Below are positions 1-7,300 of a stretch of DNA of 42,611 nt, piece after piece (positions within the stretch are counted from its first letter, which is position 1; each line of letters begins with the position of its first letter). The position numbers were made by a program, and so were the translations under genes. The stretch lies in assembly GCA_017302655.1 (NCBI GenBank), contig JAFLDE010000027.1, forward strand, positions 1-42,611, given 5' to 3'. This stretch comes from Burkholderiales bacterium (lineage in GTDB: Bacteria > Pseudomonadota > Gammaproteobacteria > Burkholderiales > Burkholderiaceae_C). The notes under the pieces were generated by a model. It searched no databases, was not told the DNA's origin, and was given only the letters and a program-made list of their open reading frames with translations.

Positions 1-144
1 CCTTCTTTGCCGCTGGCGCAGCAGCCTTCTTTGCCGCTGGCGCAGCAGCCTTCTTTGCCGCTGGCGCAGCAGCCTTCTTTGCCGCTGGCGCAGCAGCCTT
101 CTTTGCCGCTGGCGCAGCAGCCTTCTTTGCCGCTGGCGCAGCAG
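1..144. repeat. Six perfect tandem copies of a 24-bp coding repeat
   Basis: The unit CCTTCTTTGCCGCTGGCGCA plus GCAG is repeated without any base change at 1, 25, 49, 73, 97 and 121, and may continue left of the window. A seventh, diverged unit starts at 145. Each copy encodes one AAAPAAKK octad of the histone-like protein on the minus strand. Identity at synonymous positions means recent expansion by slippage or unequal recombination rather than protein-level selection alone. Confidence 0.95.
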
Positions 145-229
145 CCTTCTTCACGGCCGGCTTGGCAGTGGCCGCCTTCTTGGCAGCGGCAGGCTTCTTG
201 GCGGCAACGGTCTTCTTGGCAATGGCCAT
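1..229 (-). CDS. Histone H1-like Lys/Ala-rich DNA-binding protein (3' part outside window)
   Basis: The ATG is at 229 and reading runs leftward off the window edge, so only about the first 76 codons are seen. The product begins MAIAKKTVAAKKPAAAKKAA, continues with TAKPAVKK, and then becomes a perfect series of AAAPAAKK octads. This low-complexity Lys/Ala/Pro composition is that of bacterial histone H1-like (Hc1/BpH1-type) nucleoid proteins, common in Burkholderiales; the role is inferred from composition only. Such proteins bind DNA through their basic charge and vary in length between strains because the coding repeat expands and contracts. The C-terminus is not visible, so total length is unknown. 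An AGGACACCCC stretch lies just upstream of the start and could supply a weak ribosome binding site. Confidence 0.8.
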   Translation of the reverse strand, partial: MAIAKKTVAAKKPAAAKKAATAKPAVKKAAAPAAKKAAAPAAKKAAAPAAKKAAAPAAKKAAAPAAKKAAAPAAKK

Positions 230-320
230 GGGGTGTCCTTTGAAGTGGGGCGCACAGGCTAGGGCATGAAACGCCCGCGAGCAATGAGGGCTGCGCCCGA
301 TGGGGGCTCAGCGCTGGAGC

Positions 321-3161
321 TCAGCGCTTGAACAGGGTGAAGGGCAACAGGTCGCCGTACATGCGCAGCACCGGCGCCTGCGGCGTCGTGCCGGCCTGCC
401 GCATGACCTGTGGCATCAGTTCCTGCGCGCGGTCCATCCAGGCCAGCATGCGCACGCCCTTGCGGCCTGCGGCTTCCGTCTCGGCATCGAGGGCCTGCAA
501 GAGCGCGGCGGTGAACACGCCTTGCGCGTGCACATGGCTGTCCTGCGCACGCTCCTCGCTGCGCGCGGCGCTCATCACGTACATGCCACGCTCGCTGACC
601 GCCTGCACACGGCGCGCCAGTTCCTCCGGGCTGAAGGCACGCAGCATGTTGTTGCCGGCCATGGCCGAGTGGCAGGTGTCGATGACCAGCACCACCTCGG
701 CCGGCACATGACTCAGACGCTCGCCCAGTTCGACCATCGACAGACCGGTTTCATCCATTCGCTCGGGCACCATGTCATGGGTCCAGAAAAACAACTCAGG
801 ATCGTTCGGAAAGCGTACGCCGTGTCCGGCCAGGAAGACGAAGAGCACATCACGCTCGGCCCCGGGTGCCTCGGCGCGCGCGAGCATCCGGTCGCACAGG
901 TGGTCGAGCTCTCGCAGCACGGCAGCCTTGCTCGCCTCCTCGTTGACGAGCAGCGCGGCCTCCACGCCGTCGAACGCGCGGTTGACCAAGACCGGCCGTG
1001 TCGAGCGCACAGCGCGCCGCGGCCCGCGCTTGGACGCTGCCAAGGCATTGAAGATGGAAATGGCGTCCCGGTGCGGATACGGCAGGTTCTGGTAGCCCTG
1101 CGCAAGCGGCGTGCCGGCCACCGCGAACTCCGACACCCCAACCGCGAGCAGGAAAAGGCGTCCCGAAGCCGCCTCCTGCTGATGAGCGACCTGCAGCGGC
1201 GCCGGGCCTGGCACGCTGAGCCGCAGGGGCAGCGAACGCGAGCGCTTGTTCTCGGCCAGCAGGGTCAACTGGTTGTCGCCGGGCAGCAGGCGCAGTTTGA
1301 AACGGTACTCGTGTCTTGCTTCCTCAAAAGAGGCCACGAAGCGCCCGTTTCGCAGCAGCCAGACCTTGCTCGGTGCGTTGGCCTCACCCGCCCAGCTGGC
1401 CGCCACGCTCAGCTCGAGCAGCTGACCGGTGCGACGCTGATGCAGCAGCTCGAGATGGGGCGGCAGCAGAGCCGTCAAATCCACCGCTGGCAGCGCCACC
1501 CCGGCGGCGGCGGCGCGTGCCTCGCTGCCGTGGCGCACCACGGCACGCACCAGGTCGGGCCGATAGAAGTCCTTGAAGCGGTCGGCAGGCAGGAACAGCG
1601 CCTCCTGTTTGGGGCCGCGATTCAGGTGGTAGCCCATGAGCCTCTCGCCACCCGGGCTGGCCGCGTAGAAGCCGCTACGCGTCCAGATGACCCACTCGTC
1701 ATTGCGGGCCACGAACAGGCTGAGGTCGGGCGGCTTGTCCAGTTCGTCGCCCCAGGCGTCGGGGCTGTGGCGCAAGCCGATGAGCTGCGCGCCGCTGTCA
1801 TAGATGAACCACTTCGCCGACTCGAAGTCGCTGACCGACAGCTCGCTGCTGCGCGTGGTGCGCAGTTGCAGACGCCGCAGGTCGAAGGCCTGCTGGCGTG
1901 CAGCCTGGCGCGGCGGCAGCAACCGCTCCGGCACCGTGCCGAACAGCACCTGCTCGCGGGCGTTGATGCCTGGCGCGAAGAACCCTTGGCCCAGGCCGCG
2001 AATGGCCGCTGTCAGTTGGCCGATGCGATGGCTGGCATCCCAGAAGTGGATGGCGTGATGGTCGCCGCCGGCACTGATGGCCTGCATGCCGTCCAGGCAC
2101 AGCGCCATCACCTCGCCGTCATGCCCGAAGTAGCTGCAGCGCAGCGCCAGCCCATCCGTCGTCACGGCGTAGGCGTGGACAGCCGCCATCTCGCGGCCAT
2201 CCTGCGCCCCCCCTGCTGTCCATGGCGACAACCCCAGCAAGAGCTGCCCACCGCTGACTGAGAACACCGCCGAGGCGGGCACGGTATCCGTGCGCAATCG
2301 ACCCTGAGGGGCGTGGGCGTCGTGCCCCATCCAAAGCAACATGCCGGCCCTGCTGCGCCCTTGGCGCGGCGTGTCGGCGCGGGCCACCACCGCCAGGGCG
2401 CTGCTGACCGCCAGCGTGCGAGTATTCAACGGCCCGAGCCCCAGGACCTCGCGCCGCAGGCTCATGCCCTGCTTGAGATCGAAGTCCAGCCAGTGCAGGC
2501 TGCCGTCCTGCTCCCCGCCCAGCGCCACCAGCAATTGGCAGGGCTGGCCGCGCAACACGCGGCCGGGCAGGAAACGCAGGGCCAACTCGAACAGGCTATC
2601 GCTGGCCGCCTGGCCCAGACGGAAGCTGGCGCGCGGCTGCGGCGACCGTTCCGGAAAGCCCGCGCGCAGCACGGCGGCCGTGGTGTAGACGTCCACCCGG
2701 CCCCTTCGCAGCGAACCCACCCTTTCCAGCCCCCCAAGCACCAGCCAACGTCCATCCGGGCTGACCTCCACTTCGTCCACCAGACCCGGCAAGGCAAATC
2801 GAGACCGCAGATTGCCGTTGGCCAACTCAAAAACCTGCAGCTCGGTGCTTCGTCCTTCGTCGGCGCCCGGCAACGCCGGGTCGTACCAGGCCTTCAGCGC
2901 AATCAGGTGGCGACCATCCGGGCAGATGGCGAAGCGCTGCACATTGCCGTTGCCCCACAACTCCTCGGATCGCTCCCCGGCCTGACCCAGCAGCTGCAGA
3001 CGCTGGCGCTTCGTGGAACGGTCCCAGACACGGATCGTGCATTCACCCGCGCTCACCAAGGATTCCCCGTCCGGCGTGAGCGCCAGCTGGTGGATGCAGG
3101 CGGTGTGCGTGCCGGTGTCCAGCTTCAGGAAGGCAGACAGCGGAGGCGTTTGCGCCTTCAT
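321..3161 (-). CDS. WD40-repeat protein with C-terminal caspase-like (peptidase C14) domain
   Basis: A 946-aa protein. I chose ATG 3161 because it overlaps the stop of the upstream cyclase gene as ATGA; the open frame extends further up but only inside the cyclase gene. The N-terminal half has WD-like repeats, the first with an SAGECTIRVWD stretch near residue 35. A motif of the EWVIWTRSGFYAASPGGERL type, seen in other caspase-WD40 proteins, and an Ig-like beta segment follow. The caspase-like domain spans about 668-946, with catalytic His780 in AGHG and Cys830 in DTCHSA, so the dyad is intact. There is no signal peptide, so it is probably cytoplasmic. Family knowledge predicts a cysteine endopeptidase (metacaspase/orthocaspase group). 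Its substrate and trigger are unknown; coupling to the cyclase suggests control by a nucleotide signal or by its AAA/TPR partner. Confidence 0.87.
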   Translation of the reverse strand: MKAQTPPLSAFLKLDTGTHTACIHQLALTPDGESLVSAGECTIRVWDRSTKRQRLQLLGQAGERSEELWGNGNVQRFAICPDGRHLIALKAWYDPALPGADEGRSTELQVFELANGNLRSRFALPGLVDEVEVSPDGRWLVLGGLERVGSLRRGRVDVYTTAAVLRAGFPERSPQPRASFRLGQAASDSLFELALRFLPGRVLRGQPCQLLVALGGEQDGSLHWLDFDLKQGMSLRREVLGLGPLNTRTLAVSSALAVVARADTPRQGRSRAGMLLWMGHDAHAPQGRLRTDTVPASAVFSVSGGQLLLGLSPWTAGGAQDGREMAAVHAYAVTTDGLALRCSYFGHDGEVMALCLDGMQAISAGGDHHAIHFWDASHRIGQLTAAIRGLGQGFFAPGINAREQVLFGTVPERLLPPRQAARQQAFDLRRLQLRTTRSSELSVSDFESAKWFIYDSGAQLIGLRHSPDAWGDELDKPPDLSLFVARNDEWVIWTRSGFYAASPGGERLMGYHLNRGPKQEALFLPADRFKDFYRPDLVRAVVRHGSEARAAAAGVALPAVDLTALLPPHLELLHQRRTGQLLELSVAASWAGEANAPSKVWLLRNGRFVASFEEARHEYRFKLRLLPGDNQLTLLAENKRSRSLPLRLSVPGPAPLQVAHQQEAASGRLFLLAVGVSEFAVAGTPLAQGYQNLPYPHRDAISIFNALAASKRGPRRAVRSTRPVLVNRAFDGVEAALLVNEEASKAAVLRELDHLCDRMLARAEAPGAERDVLFVFLAGHGVRFPNDPELFFWTHDMVPERMDETGLSMVELGERLSHVPAEVVLVIDTCHSAMAGNNMLRAFSPEELARRVQAVSERGMYVMSAARSEERAQDSHVHAQGVFTAALLQALDAETEAAGRKGVRMLAWMDRAQELMPQVMRQAGTTPQAPVLRMYGDLLPFTLFKR

Positions 3162-6100
3162 GCCAAGCCCTTTTGCAGCCAGCGATGGGCAGGGAGTTCC
3201 AGGAAGGACTGACGCAGATCCGCCTGCCCCATGCGCTCGCAGCGTGCCTGCAGTTCGGCCCTCGCCAGGTCGAGCAGGCGCTGCATCGCCGCCCGGTCCG
3301 CCGTGGGCACCTGCTGCAACACCTGCAGTGCACTCGCGTACAGGCTCAAGGGCAGGGCCTGAGGCGAGGCTGCCAGCAAACCGGCCATCAGCTCGTCGAC
3401 GTGGGCGGGCTGCTGTGCGCGCGCCAAGTCCAGACGGCACTGCACCACCCGGCGCATGAGGTCCTGCACGGGCGCTTCGGCAGGCGCGGTGAGCGACGCC
3501 AGCAGCGAAGCCGCGTCATTGAGGCGACCGGCGTCAATCAGGGTGTCCGCCCAATGCAGCGTCACGCTGACCTTCAAAGCAGGCAGCCCGACCTCCTCCG
3601 CCATGGCCAGGCTGTCACGAAAATGGTGCAACGCGGCGTCCAACTCGCCCAGCGAGCGGGCCAGCAACCCGAGGTTCTCGCACACGCAGGCCTCCCCCCG
3701 CTTGTGGCCGCAGCTGCGCAGGCCTGCCAGCGCCTGCTCGGCCAGTGGCCGTGCGGCGGCGACCTGGCCCAACTCACGCAGCGCCTCCGCCCAATTCAGC
3801 AATGCCATCCCATGCGCTGCAGGCTCATCGAGACGCTCGAACAGGCCGGCTGCAGCTTTGGACTCTCGCAAGGCACGCTCGAACTCGCCCGCAGCCAGGC
3901 AGGCGCTGCCGATGTTGTTGACGAGCAATGCCTCGCCCGCGCGGTCTCCGATGCGGCGTGCCTGCTGCCCGGCCTGTTCGTAATAGGCGATGGCCTGCGC
4001 GAAGTCGCCGCGCGACTTGGCCACCACGCCCAGGTTGTTCAACAGGTCCAGCTCGCGCCGGGCGTCGCCCGCGCCTCGGGTGCGGGCCAAGGCGTCCGTC
4101 AGCAGTGCCTCGGCTTGGGCGTGCTCGCCCTGCTGCCAGTGCAGCAGACCCAACAGAGCCAGGATGTTGTATTCCCCCCGCGAATGGCCATGCTGGCGCG
4201 CGAGGGCCAAAGCCTTGTCCAGCGGTGCCCGGGCCGCTGCGGTGGCGCCTGCATGGAAGCGCGCACGCGCCAGCAGCAGCAAGCCATCGGCTTGCTGGCG
4301 CTCCGCGCCCACTGCAGCTGCGGCGCCCGCAATGGCCTTTGCGCTGGCTGCTTCGGCGGCGGGGTAGTGCCCCAGGTCGATCTCGAGCTTGGCCAGCCTC
4401 ACGTGCACCTCGGCCTGGCGCGGTGCGTCGTTCAGTTCGCTGGCCAGGGCGGCCAACTCGGTCAGGGTGTCACGCTGGCGGGCGTGTTCGCCGAGCAAAT
4501 CGAACACCTCTTCCTGCTTCAGCAGCAGCTCGAAGCGGGCAAGGCGTTCGCCGGACGGCATGGCGGCCAGGGCGCGTGCAAACAGGGCCAAGGCCTCGTC
4601 GTTGGCGAAGCGTGCGGCCGCTTGCTTGCCGGCCTGCAACAGATGAGGCCAGGCCTTGTCGGGTTGCTCAGCCCGCGAGAAGTGATGGGCCAGAGCGGCC
4701 GCCTGCGTGCGCAGGGCGTCCTGCCCGTCTGATTGAGCGCAGCACCGGGCCTCCAGGTGCTGCGCATACAGCCCATGGAGATAGACCCGCGTGGCGTAGG
4801 GCATGGACTCGTAGCCCACCTCCAGCGTCACGCGGTGGCGGAACAGGTAGGTCAGCTGCTCAGCCTCGAGCTCCTGGGGGGTGAATCCCAGTCGATCGAG
4901 CACCTGCAACTCACCACGCACGGCTTCTGTGCTGCCCAGCAGCGGGTAAAAAGCGGGCAACTCGTCGGCCAGGAACACGCGGCCCACGATGCTGGCCACC
5001 TTCAGCACCTGCTGCTGCGTCCGGGGCAGTTGGTCGATGCGGCTGAGCACCAGGGCGTGCAAGCTGGTGGGCCACTCGAGCGGTGCCTCGGCACCGAGCC
5101 GTCGCAGATCCAGACCCCGGTCGTGCAGGTAACCGAGCAATTCCTCGATGTAAAAGGGATTGCCTTGAGCCCGCTGGGCCACCTGCTCGATGAGGCCAGC
5201 GGCCACGCCCCCGACACGCTCGGGATACAGATGCGCCAGCGTGGCGCGGATGACTTGTTCGGCTTGCGCCGCATCCAGCGGCGCCAGCGCGAGCGTCTGG
5301 AGGTGAGGCACGGGCTCCAGCCGGTCGGAGCCGCTCTCGGGTCTTTGGCTCAGCAGCATCAGCATCGGCAGATCGACCGCCGCAGCGCAGAGCTGGCGCA
5401 GCAGATCGAGCGACGAGGCGTCGATGGCATGCAGGTCCTCCAGCACCAGCAGCAAGCCGCCGCCCTCCACGGCCGCCTCGCGGGCCTCACCCGCCAGGCA
5501 ACGCAGCAGCATCGACTCCAGCAGCGCCTTGCGGTCCTTGGCTTGCAAACCCTCGGTGAACTCGTTTTCCGGCAGCGTCATGCCCAGCCCCGCACCGAGC
5601 AAGGGCCAGGCCTCCTCGTGCTCGGGTGCATGCTCGGCCAGCTCCAGCCGGAGCTGACGAATGCAGCGGCGTCGCGGCAGTTGGGGGTCGATGTCGAACA
5701 GGGCTTGGAGCAAGCCATGCCACAGGTGGTAGGGCTCGTTCAAGCCGTCCCCCACGCAGGAGCCGCCATAGCCCTGGAAGCCGGCACGCCGCGCCTGCCG
5801 GATGCCCTCGGCCAGCAAGCGCGACTTGCCCATGCCGGCTTCGGCCTCGACCACGATCACCTGGCCACGCCCTGCTGCGGCCTCCCGCAGCGCATGCTCG
5901 ATGCAGGCCTGTTGCGGCTCGCGCCCGACCATCGGCAGACCGTAGGCCGGTTCCTGCAGGCGAATGGCGCGTTGGCGCAGCTTGCCCATCACCGCAAACA
6001 CCAGCATGGGCTCGCCCTTGCCCTTGAGCGGGAGCGGCGGCCGCGCTTCCAGCTGGAAGCCTTGTGCCAGCTGCGTGCGCAGGCGCGCCGAGATGAGAAT

Positions 6101-7300
6101 TTCGCCAGGCTGGGCGATCTGCATCAAGCGTGCCGCTGCATTGGTGTCGTCACCCATGGCGCCGAAGGAGCGTCTTGTGCTGCTGCCATAGGCACCGACG
6201 CGCAGCAGGCCATGGCTCAGGCCGAACTGCATCGGCAGCTCAAAGCCGGCATCGCGCAGGGCCAGCGCGGCGCACACCGCGCGGAATGCATCGTCTTCGC
6301 GAACCCGATCGGCCCCAAAGCTGGCCAGGAAGTAGCTGCCCTTGTCGCCCACGGTGAGCTCCAGGAGTTGGCCCTCGTAGGCATGCAGCAAATGCTGGGC
6401 GCGGGTGATGAGCGCATCGAGCTGCGCCGCCGCCGTCTCGTCGCCGTCGTAATCCAAGCCGCCAAAGCGCACGAACAACACGGCGGCGGGCCGCAGGTCG
6501 GTGGCGAAGAGGCCGCCATCGGCCTCGCGCTCCTGAACAAAGGGCAGCACCCAAGGCAACACCCGCTCGATGGGCGGGGGAGCCGCTGACGGGGCCAAGG
6601 CCTGTTCGCCTGTGCCCTTCGACAATGCGGAGCCCGCGTCGGGCCAGGTGTGCGAAGTCAGGCGCAGCGTCGGCTCGCCCTCGCCAACACTGGCGACCGC
6701 CCCCAGGCCCAGCAGAGCTGCCGTCGCAGCGTCGAGTACCACCTCGCCGGGCTGCGCCTGCTGTTCGAGCCTTGCCATGCGCGCCAGGGTGGCGCCGGCC
6801 AGCACGTCCAGGCGCTGCAAGGCGGCGTCGCCCACGGCGAAGCGCCGCGCCGGACCGCTGGCCAGCGCCAACTTGACCGAGAGCTCTCCCCCCTGCCGCA
6901 TGGCTGCCTGCATGGCCATCGCGGCACGGGCGGCACGCCGGGCGCTGTTCGCAAGGTCTGCAGCATCGGCATTCGCCCCGGCATCAAACCAGCAGGTGAT
7001 GGAGTCCCCGGCGAAACCGATGACGCTGCCGCCGTGGCGCTCCACCTCCTGAATCAGGGCCTCGTAGGCCGCCCCGACGCGTTGGGAGAGCGCCTCGATG
7101 CCGCGCCGCGCGCCCAGCCGGTGGGTCAATTCCTCCGTGAGCCGCGTGAAGCCGGTGATGTCGGCGAAGAGTGCGCTGCCCTGCGTGCGCTCGGGGAGGC
7201 TTGCGCCTTGCGCCAGTGCGCGCAAGCGATCCTGCGGCAGGTAGGTGTGCAGGGCCATGGGGTACCGAGAAGGGGTGATCGGAACGGTAGCACGGGCCAT
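3158..7300 (-). CDS. Tandem class III nucleotide cyclase, AAA ATPase and TPR protein (soluble adenylyl cyclase layout)
   Basis: A 1380-aa protein; an in-frame ATG at 7258 (MALHTYLPQ) is an equally possible start. Cyclase domain 1 (about 40-200) carries both metal-binding aspartates, Asp47 in FADITGFT and Asp99 in FAGDS. Domain 2 (about 270-435) lacks the first aspartate (FVRFGG) but has Lys320 in GDKG and the Asn387/Arg391 pair in TNAAARL. The two domains therefore complement each other for one catalytic site, as in mammalian soluble adenylyl cyclase. A GREPQ motif and Walker A EAEAGMGKS (485-493) open an AAA/STAND-type ATPase, with a Walker B-like VLEDLHAID. TPR-like helical repeats fill the last third. 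The predicted reaction is ATP to cAMP under control of the ATPase/TPR part. The lysine that usually precedes the domain-1 GD motif is Gly95. It is co-transcribed with the caspase-like gene. Confidence 0.88.
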   Translation of the reverse strand: MARATVPITPSRYPMALHTYLPQDRLRALAQGASLPERTQGSALFADITGFTRLTEELTHRLGARRGIEALSQRVGAAYEALIQEVERHGGSVIGFAGDSITCWFDAGANADAADLANSARRAARAAMAMQAAMRQGGELSVKLALASGPARRFAVGDAALQRLDVLAGATLARMARLEQQAQPGEVVLDAATAALLGLGAVASVGEGEPTLRLTSHTWPDAGSALSKGTGEQALAPSAAPPPIERVLPWVLPFVQEREADGGLFATDLRPAAVLFVRFGGLDYDGDETAAAQLDALITRAQHLLHAYEGQLLELTVGDKGSYFLASFGADRVREDDAFRAVCAALALRDAGFELPMQFGLSHGLLRVGAYGSSTRRSFGAMGDDTNAAARLMQIAQPGEILISARLRTQLAQGFQLEARPPLPLKGKGEPMLVFAVMGKLRQRAIRLQEPAYGLPMVGREPQQACIEHALREAAAGRGQVIVVEAEAGMGKSRLLAEGIRQARRAGFQGYGGSCVGDGLNEPYHLWHGLLQALFDIDPQLPRRRCIRQLRLELAEHAPEHEEAWPLLGAGLGMTLPENEFTEGLQAKDRKALLESMLLRCLAGEAREAAVEGGGLLLVLEDLHAIDASSLDLLRQLCAAAVDLPMLMLLSQRPESGSDRLEPVPHLQTLALAPLDAAQAEQVIRATLAHLYPERVGGVAAGLIEQVAQRAQGNPFYIEELLGYLHDRGLDLRRLGAEAPLEWPTSLHALVLSRIDQLPRTQQQVLKVASIVGRVFLADELPAFYPLLGSTEAVRGELQVLDRLGFTPQELEAEQLTYLFRHRVTLEVGYESMPYATRVYLHGLYAQHLEARCCAQSDGQDALRTQAAALAHHFSRAEQPDKAWPHLLQAGKQAAARFANDEALALFARALAAMPSGERLARFELLLKQEEVFDLLGEHARQRDTLTELAALASELNDAPRQAEVHVRLAKLEIDLGHYPAAEAASAKAIAGAAAAVGAERQQADGLLLLARARFHAGATAAARAPLDKALALARQHGHSRGEYNILALLGLLHWQQGEHAQAEALLTDALARTRGAGDARRELDLLNNLGVVAKSRGDFAQAIAYYEQAGQQARRIGDRAGEALLVNNIGSACLAAGEFERALRESKAAAGLFERLDEPAAHGMALLNWAEALRELGQVAAARPLAEQALAGLRSCGHKRGEACVCENLGLLARSLGELDAALHHFRDSLAMAEEVGLPALKVSVTLHWADTLIDAGRLNDAASLLASLTAPAEAPVQDLMRRVVQCRLDLARAQQPAHVDELMAGLLAASPQALPLSLYASALQVLQQVPTADRAAMQRLLDLARAELQARCERMGQADLRQSFLELPAHRWLQKGLA

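Follow-up and report, generated by a model that had tools for sequence, protein, structure and literature searches.

A cyclase-ATPase-TPR gene, a WD40-caspase gene and a small downstream gene: a probable, rare unit for signalling or cell fate in a Burkholderiales bacterium

Gene content of the locus

We analyzed a 42,611-nt stretch of DNA from a Burkholderiales bacterium (contig JAFLDE010000027.1, referred to here as the window). Three genes on the reverse strand lie at its low-coordinate end (Table 1). The first encodes a cyclase-ATPase-TPR protein, the second encodes a WD40-caspase, and the third, directly downstream of the caspase gene, begins at position 229 and runs into the contig end. 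A preliminary description of this DNA had proposed a two-gene module of cyclase and caspase with an ATGA overlap; both genes are present and the caspase ATG, at 3161, does overlap the cyclase TGA (3160-3158). The extent of that module was drawn too short, as the third gene had been missed.

Table 1. Features of the locus, with window coordinates
Feature	Position	Strand	Basis or remark
Third gene, partial; lysine/alanine-rich MAIAKKTVAAKK...(AAAPAAKK)n	1..229	-	cut by contig end
Promoter-like element of the third gene: TTGCTC (284-279), 17 nt, TAGCCT (261-256)	256..284	-	pattern search
WD40-caspase gene, 946 aa (P0001), without export-like N-terminus	321..3161	-	Pfam, alignment
Caspase (Peptidase_C14) region; H780, D828, C830	324..1166	-	Pfam, NCBIfam, alignment
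ATGA overlap of the cyclase and caspase reading frames	3158..3161	-	read from ORFs
Cyclase-ATPase-TPR gene, 1366 aa (P0006)	3158..7258	-	alternative ATG upstream at 7300
TPR region, aa 886-1366	3161..4603	-	Pfam and identity between orthologs
AAA_16 / STAND-like ATPase region, aa 440-885	4604..5941	-	Pfam
Walker A AEAGMGKS and Walker B LLLVLEDLH of the ATPase region (aa 440-885)		-	by-eye reading of sequence
Cyclase half C2, aa 235-426; K306, N373, R377; G366 at the place of sAC T405	5981..6556	-	Pfam, sAC alignment, fold
Cyclase half C1, aa 1-200; metal aspartates D33, D85	6659..7258	-	Pfam, sAC alignment, ortholog comparison, fold
Extended -10-like element TGCTACCGT before the cyclase gene	7284..7292	-	by-eye reading

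The cyclase gene had been started at 7300. The gene itself stands, and we take 7258 as its likely start, since the equivalent of Met15 in the 7300-start version is the earliest start codon of the frame in two orthologs described below, G233 and G011; the third, G774, has an additional upstream start like the window and leaves the choice undecided. With the start at 7258 all cyclase residue numbers drop by 14. The extended -10-like element falls just within the 7300-start version of the gene. By eye, the same element is found upstream of the cyclase gene in the window, G233 and G011, and G774 has TGTTAGCGT there. The TTG/TA promoter pattern of the third gene (see below) matched none of the four cyclase upstream sequences.

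The cyclase-ATPase-TPR protein

Pfam lists two Guanylate_cyc stretches, AAA_16 and TPR_12 for the first protein. AAA_16, a model that is not specific for STAND proteins, scored 57 bits, above its cut-off; TPR_MalT, at 38.8 bits, fell short of its cut-off (45). By sequence, the best solved match is human soluble adenylyl cyclase (sAC, ADCY10), in two stretches that span both halves; it also ranks first by fold (TM 0.77 of the query, E 6.8e-24), the query being a structure model of moderate confidence (mean pLDDT 68.5) built from four sequences.

The five residues that the preliminary description had put forward as complementary half-sites are present and fall on their sAC equivalents: D47 and D99 (7300-start numbering) align with the sAC metal aspartates, and K320, N387 and R391 with sAC K334, N412 and R416. 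In the 7258-start numbering these are D33, D85, K306, N373 and R377, all unchanged in the four orthologs (window, G233, G011 and G774). The protein thus has the metal Asp pair in C1 and the Lys/Asn/Arg set in C2 of a tandem class III cyclase. Identity between ortholog pairs is highest in the cyclase halves (52-67%) and lowest in the TPR region, the fastest-diverging part (43-55% overall; 43-46% between the window and the three orthologs).

Two features leave room for an inactive cyclase. One is a Gly (G366), found in all four orthologs at the place of sAC T405, the base-recognition residue; it leaves the choice of base open, and it sits in a stretch of the model (residues 354-369) with pLDDT below 50. 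The other is 6yii, a solved cyclase-like tandem protein titled ATP-binding, which the fold search also matched; a literature search found no paper on it. The bicarbonate residues of sAC, K95 and R176, are not kept in the alignment of the window cyclase to sAC. The Gly and 6yii would fit a cyclase part that is a nucleotide sensor without catalysis, the whole protein being purely a STAND-type activator. We regard this as quite improbable, as all five catalytic positions are invariant at an overall identity of 48-58%.

The WD40-caspase

In the second protein Pfam finds one WD40 repeat (residues 18-47) and Peptidase_C14 (758-896; 34 bits, cut-off 21.4), so that the protein has the p20 domain with His-Cys dyad residues of orthocaspases and metacaspases. 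The dyad named in the preliminary description, H780 and C830, is present, and together with D828 it is unvarying in 19 of 19 aligned caspases. These comprise three cyclase-linked caspases and 16 others that were hand-picked among loci with a script-called gene, some such loci being omitted. In metacaspases an Asp two residues before the catalytic Cys goes with cleavage after Lys or Arg. As D828 holds that position in all 19 rows, the enzyme is predicted to cut after Lys or Arg. Among the best 50 rows of a fold search with the whole protein, propellers dominated, which made the search uninformative for the caspase part; the caspase part alone gave a weak fold match to solved metacaspase-9 (E 0.23).

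In a tree of the C-terminal parts (midpoint root, for drawing only), the three cyclase-linked caspases stand apart from the 16 others with support of 100/100, in a data set where L059 and L067 have long branches and the G233 row is of unusual make-up. Fourteen of the 16 others (the exceptions being L041 and L067) carry near the N-terminus a hydrophobic 15-residue stretch (mean at least 1.75), as for export. By this measure, which is crude and not a signal-peptide predictor, the cyclase-linked caspases reach 0.48, 1.08 and 1.51, the last two within the propeller. We take the cyclase-linked caspases to be a single cytoplasmic branch of a family whose members are mostly exported.

The domain content of the caspase bears on how it might be switched on. 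In Pycsar a cyclase is paired with a cNMP-binding effector, and a class III cyclase as a possible alarm is a point of likeness. The locus could likewise be a second-messenger relay, in which a trigger leads to cAMP or cGMP and the nucleotide itself activates the caspase. The catalytic set of C1 and C2 is complete in all four orthologs, and each half is hit by Pycsar-cyclase models of PADLOC, with best values of 1.8e-6 in C1 and 5.8e-12 in C2. Such matches are, however, expected of a class III cyclase in any role, and no cyclic-nucleotide-binding domain is among those listed by Pfam for the WD40-caspase (E up to 0.1) or for 10 flanking proteins from the four loci (E up to 0.001; no vWA or MoxR domain was listed for the latter either). 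We consider such a relay unlikely; as the caspase has no listed cyclic-nucleotide-binding domain, contact through the ATPase/TPR part seems the likelier trigger.

The third gene

Counterparts of the third gene were found at the other three loci: one of 52 residues in G233, one of 90 residues in G774, and one in G011 that follows a lone cyclase gene. All three complete copies end in, or close to, a G-x-D-[VI]-V-R motif. In G774 and G011 it forms the very end of the protein, so that no cut is possible after the motif Arg, which is the last residue; in G233 the motif is followed by six more residues. In G011 a TIR-like protein is encoded head-on to the third gene. A search of the genome with the repeat of the window copy, aimed at the rest of that gene, yielded nothing beyond the repeat's five copies at the contig end.

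The third gene begins 91 nt past the preceding stop in the window, 88 nt past it in G233 and 87 nt past it in G011. The pattern TTGCNN-N17-TANNNT occurs within 120 nt before its ATG at all four loci. The looser TTGNNN-N16..18-TANNNT, picked like the first after inspection of the four sequences, is likewise present at all four (always with N17) versus 0.275% of random 120-mers from the same DNA. In G774 the caspase frame has no stop ahead of the third gene, giving one open frame. We gave this fusion no weight as evidence of linkage: loss of a stop codon would account for it, and the stretch that joins the two frames contains the promoter-like element.

The body of the third protein is lysine/alanine-rich at the three caspase-bearing loci and not in G011 (n = 4). 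The Pfam model HC2 (histone H1-like), scanned against the G774 copy alone, matched the lysine-rich part of that frame with 42 bits (cut-off 40). Lysine-rich H1-like genes are common in bacteria, and a lysine-rich body alone therefore proves little.

The tail was also sought by pattern. A DNA pattern for the motif plus stop gave one match each in 26 of 399 family genomes; a reversed control pattern matched more of them, 76 by hand count. By eye, the G011 match alone among the 26 is a small gene of the third-gene kind. The matches in L203 and L213 are ends of long transporter-looking frames, and the remaining ones show no likeness (Lys at most 8%). The later stop in G233 puts that copy out of the pattern's reach. 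A looser motif scan, run on the window, the 40 caspase loci, L115-L130 and L151-L153, returned four frames: the G233 and G011 copies and chance-looking frames of 22-23 residues in L055 and L069; it missed the G774 copy owing to its limit on frame length. A narrower motif scan of all loci collected added one further, chance-looking frame in L136.

Recurrence and inheritance of the unit

The cyclase was searched for in overlapping, evenly drawn sets of 299 family, 399 order, 67 G774-family, 21 G011-genus, 398 phylum and 6 genus genomes, two candidates per genome being scored in the 299, 399 and 398 sets. Four full-length orthologs were found, the window included. All remaining matches listed covered part of the protein and scored much lower (the next best in the order set had 359 bits versus 1697 for G774), and most of the further bacterial ones span C2-AAA or C2-AAA-TPR, not C1.

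A caspase gene adjoins the cyclase gene in three of the four orthologs: the window, G233 (locus L037, same genus, 12-nt gap) and G774 (locus L151, another family), where the caspase gene follows the cyclase gene after 31 nt and its product is 41% identical by tblastn. The pair is present in two of the six genomes of the genus, and order and strand are the same in two families. ORFs of at least 80 aa outside the unit gave no match between any of the loci (blastp E 1e-8, all six pairs). In G011 the cyclase has no caspase within the 19.9 kb examined, and the cyclase is therefore not in need of one.

Seen from the caspase side the link is sparse. Caspase protein matches were obtained in 46 of 399 family genomes, the source genome included, with two candidates per genome scored. 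Forty loci of up to 20 kb each, several ending at contig ends, were fetched from 38 of the 45 other matching genomes (seven were unfetched), and one of them, G233, has the cyclase. We concluded that caspases of this kind do not, as a rule, have a linked cyclase. The conserved adjacency that the preliminary description had asked for is thus seen among the cyclase orthologs, with unrelated flanks, and fails at the G011 locus and at all but one of the 40 caspase loci fetched.

Further searches added no pair. No caspase was found by tblastn at 15 further cyclase-like loci (L116-L130, E 1e-4) or at the order-set matches G547 and G642 (E 0.01). Among plasmid records, 11 and 273 had a match, none spanning 80% of either protein; viral contigs gave pattern matches, but neither alignment turned up a relative. 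A scan of genome contigs returned one distant caspase. The script's gene lists are rough, as its gene caller missed real genes, including the window and G774 caspases.

These counts bear on one alternative, a chance operon in which the genes are co-transcribed without functional link and the H1-like neighbour is unrelated. In its favour, one of four orthologs lacks the pair, and 39 of the 40 caspase loci fetched lack the cyclase. Against chance, order and strand are the same in two families amid unrelated flanks, the promoter-like element occurs at four of four loci, and the tail is in all three complete copies. We consider chance extremely unlikely.

Although G233 is of the same genus, its cyclase is less similar to the window cyclase (48.5% identity) than the G011 cyclase is (53%), and the G233 caspase groups with the G774 caspase (support 98/96). 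As these relationships cross taxonomy, the unit seems not to be simply inherited with the species.

The preliminary description had suggested a look for enrichment near defence genes. PADLOC gave one weak match among 10 flanking proteins chosen from the four loci, which is little sign of a defence neighbourhood. The scarcity of defence matches would agree with a non-lethal regulator of stress responses or development: by trimming a DNA-binding-like third protein, the caspase would alter nucleoid state or transcription, with no death and no defence. The HC2 match of the lysine-rich part in G774 and the third gene's own promoter-like element would fit as well. However, the third protein of G011 is not lysine-rich, and the patchy spread and unrelated flanks look like those of mobile conflict genes. 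We judge such a regulator to be rather unlikely.

Comparison with known systems

The first protein resembles human sAC and bacterial sAC-like cyclase-AAA-TPR proteins in its tandem halves with one complementary active site, its ATPase and its TPRs. It differs from ADCY10 by the Gly at the base-recognition place, by the lack of the bicarbonate residues, and by the co-encoded caspase. On the caspase side, passages of a census of prokaryotic caspases and operons report WD40 in 10.9% of metacaspase/orthocaspase sequences (Asplund-Samuelsson, 2012; PMC3501461). The WD40 domain and p20 caspase with a His/Cys dyad described there are shared by the window protein, which differs in looking cytoplasmic and in forming, with the two other cyclase-linked caspases, a separate group in the 19-row comparison. 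The word "cyclase" has no occurrence in the main text of that census.

Two sets of predicted systems come closer. In System 4 (EACC1-caspase), a cyclase domain can displace the caspase domain (Kaur, 2020; PMC7159879). System 4 and the VMAP ternary systems, which comprise several genes and are predicted to act in conflict, resemble our locus in drawing on caspase and cNMP-cyclase domains; here, by contrast, cyclase and caspase are both present and the 5' gene is the cyclase, not EACC1. The NCBIfam model caspase_w_EACC1 scores 72.5 bits against the WD40-caspase, about half its cut-off of 140, and there is no 5' EACC1 gene. Operons of caspase and AP-ATPase (STAND) genes with death-like adaptor domains were also predicted, and one Gemmata protein combines cyclase, FGS, TRADD-N and caspase, according to excerpts of a later study (Kaur, 2021; PMC8195603). 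As described in those excerpts, these operons bring caspase and STAND ATPase together in an apoptosome-like logic; at our locus, with its caspase and STAND-like ATPase, the ATPase bears tandem cyclase halves and TPRs and there is an extra, tailed third protein. No adaptor domain is listed for the cyclase or caspase protein by Pfam, a library that may lack such models. The trio is a variant on caspase/STAND/cyclase modules that comparative genomics already predicted. For the cyclase-ATPase-TPR/WD40-caspase pair itself, no paper was found by title or abstract start in the open-access literature, which leaves subscription journals mostly outside.

Proposed mechanism and significance

We concluded that the cyclase, caspase and third gene are probably a single unit, of a rare kind, that serves signalling or cell fate; its coupling, its activity and any defence role are inferences. 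The working of the unit that we favour, tentatively and as a possibility, is a three-gene cytoplasmic switch: the ATPase-TPR protein would activate the caspase, with the tailed protein as bait, adaptor or substrate and the cyclic nucleotide as a parallel output. The cyclase-ATPase-TPR protein would be the sensor; its ATPase/TPR part resembles a STAND-type switch, and the WD40-caspase resembles the executor of such a switch. Upon a trigger it would change its nucleotide state, assemble and activate the caspase by contact (TPR to propeller), as modelled on STAND proteins in apoptosome-type systems. The caspase, a predicted Lys/Arg cutter, would then cleave the lysine-rich third protein and perhaps further targets. 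Since Lys306 is retained, the cyclase might make cAMP, either as an additional output or to report the ATP state.

Within this three-gene switch, the tail of the third protein goes with the cyclase (three of three complete copies, whether a caspase is present or not) and its lysine-rich body with the caspase (three of three, and missing at the caspase-free locus), which from four loci suggests that the tail may be the part the sensor reads or docks, and the body the part the caspase acts on. Several observations weigh against the switch. Coupling is not obligatory, as G011 has the cyclase and third gene without the caspase. The examples number four, the lysine/caspase correlation has n = 4, and the tail of the window's third gene lies beyond the contig end. 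The terminal position of the motif Arg in G774 and G011, the commonness of H1-like genes, the room for an inactive cyclase and the choice of the promoter pattern after inspection of the sequences also count against it.

A more elaborate variant, which we regard as very doubtful, makes the third protein a guarded bait. It would be made constitutively from its own promoter, and the TPR sensor would hold on to its G-x-D-[VI]-V-R end; damage or removal of the bait by an invader would free the ATPase to fire the caspase, with the cyclic nucleotide as a second alarm. In G011 the TIR-like protein may then replace the caspase as effector.

How they are triggered is, to our knowledge, an open question for most prokaryotic caspases. 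The fixed C-terminal motif of the third gene offers a testable handle on that triggering in bacteria, by peptide binding or cleavage, and G011, the relative with the lone cyclase, is a natural control. If the proposed three-gene switch is true, the unit would link sAC-type signalling, STAND-type switching and caspase proteolysis, which are usually treated separately in bacteria.

Other caspases and neighboring genes

Beyond the caspase of the window, four more Peptidase_C14 matches above the Pfam cut-off were found in the same genome. Judged by a hydrophobic N-terminal stretch, a crude measure, most of the other aligned caspases from the bacterial family of the window organism (L038-L067) look exported (14 of the 16 rows), an unusual location for a caspase. 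The genus mate G233, which carries the cyclase-caspase pair, has a second caspase, placed outside the cyclase-linked group in the tree of aligned rows; no cyclase match was detected near it within the 19.9 kb read.

Additional caspases and lysine-rich or putative TIR-like neighbors
Feature	Location	Strand	Remark
Extra Peptidase_C14 matches, window's genome	contigs C1, C154, C158, C169		Pfam cut-off passed
Second caspase, G233	L045:8359-11124	+	exported-looking
Joined caspase and third-gene frame, G774	L151:12808-16068	+	1086 residues, single open frame
Second lysine-rich gene, G774	L151:17058-17510	-	
Protein opposite third gene, G011	L115:8349-9311	+	head-on to third gene

In G774, a genome of another family, no stop separates the caspase frame from the lysine-rich third gene; the C-terminal part of the second lysine-rich product presumably resembles a SWIB domain. 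The G011 locus has the cyclase and third gene and lacks a caspase in the 19.9 kb read. Its head-on neighbor ends in a CFVIMPF...NPNVYYEAGLADA-type part, which we take to be TIR-like; the protein matched the PADLOC TIR-effector model (1.2e-6) and gave zero Pfam matches up to E 1. This candidate may stand in for the absent caspase.
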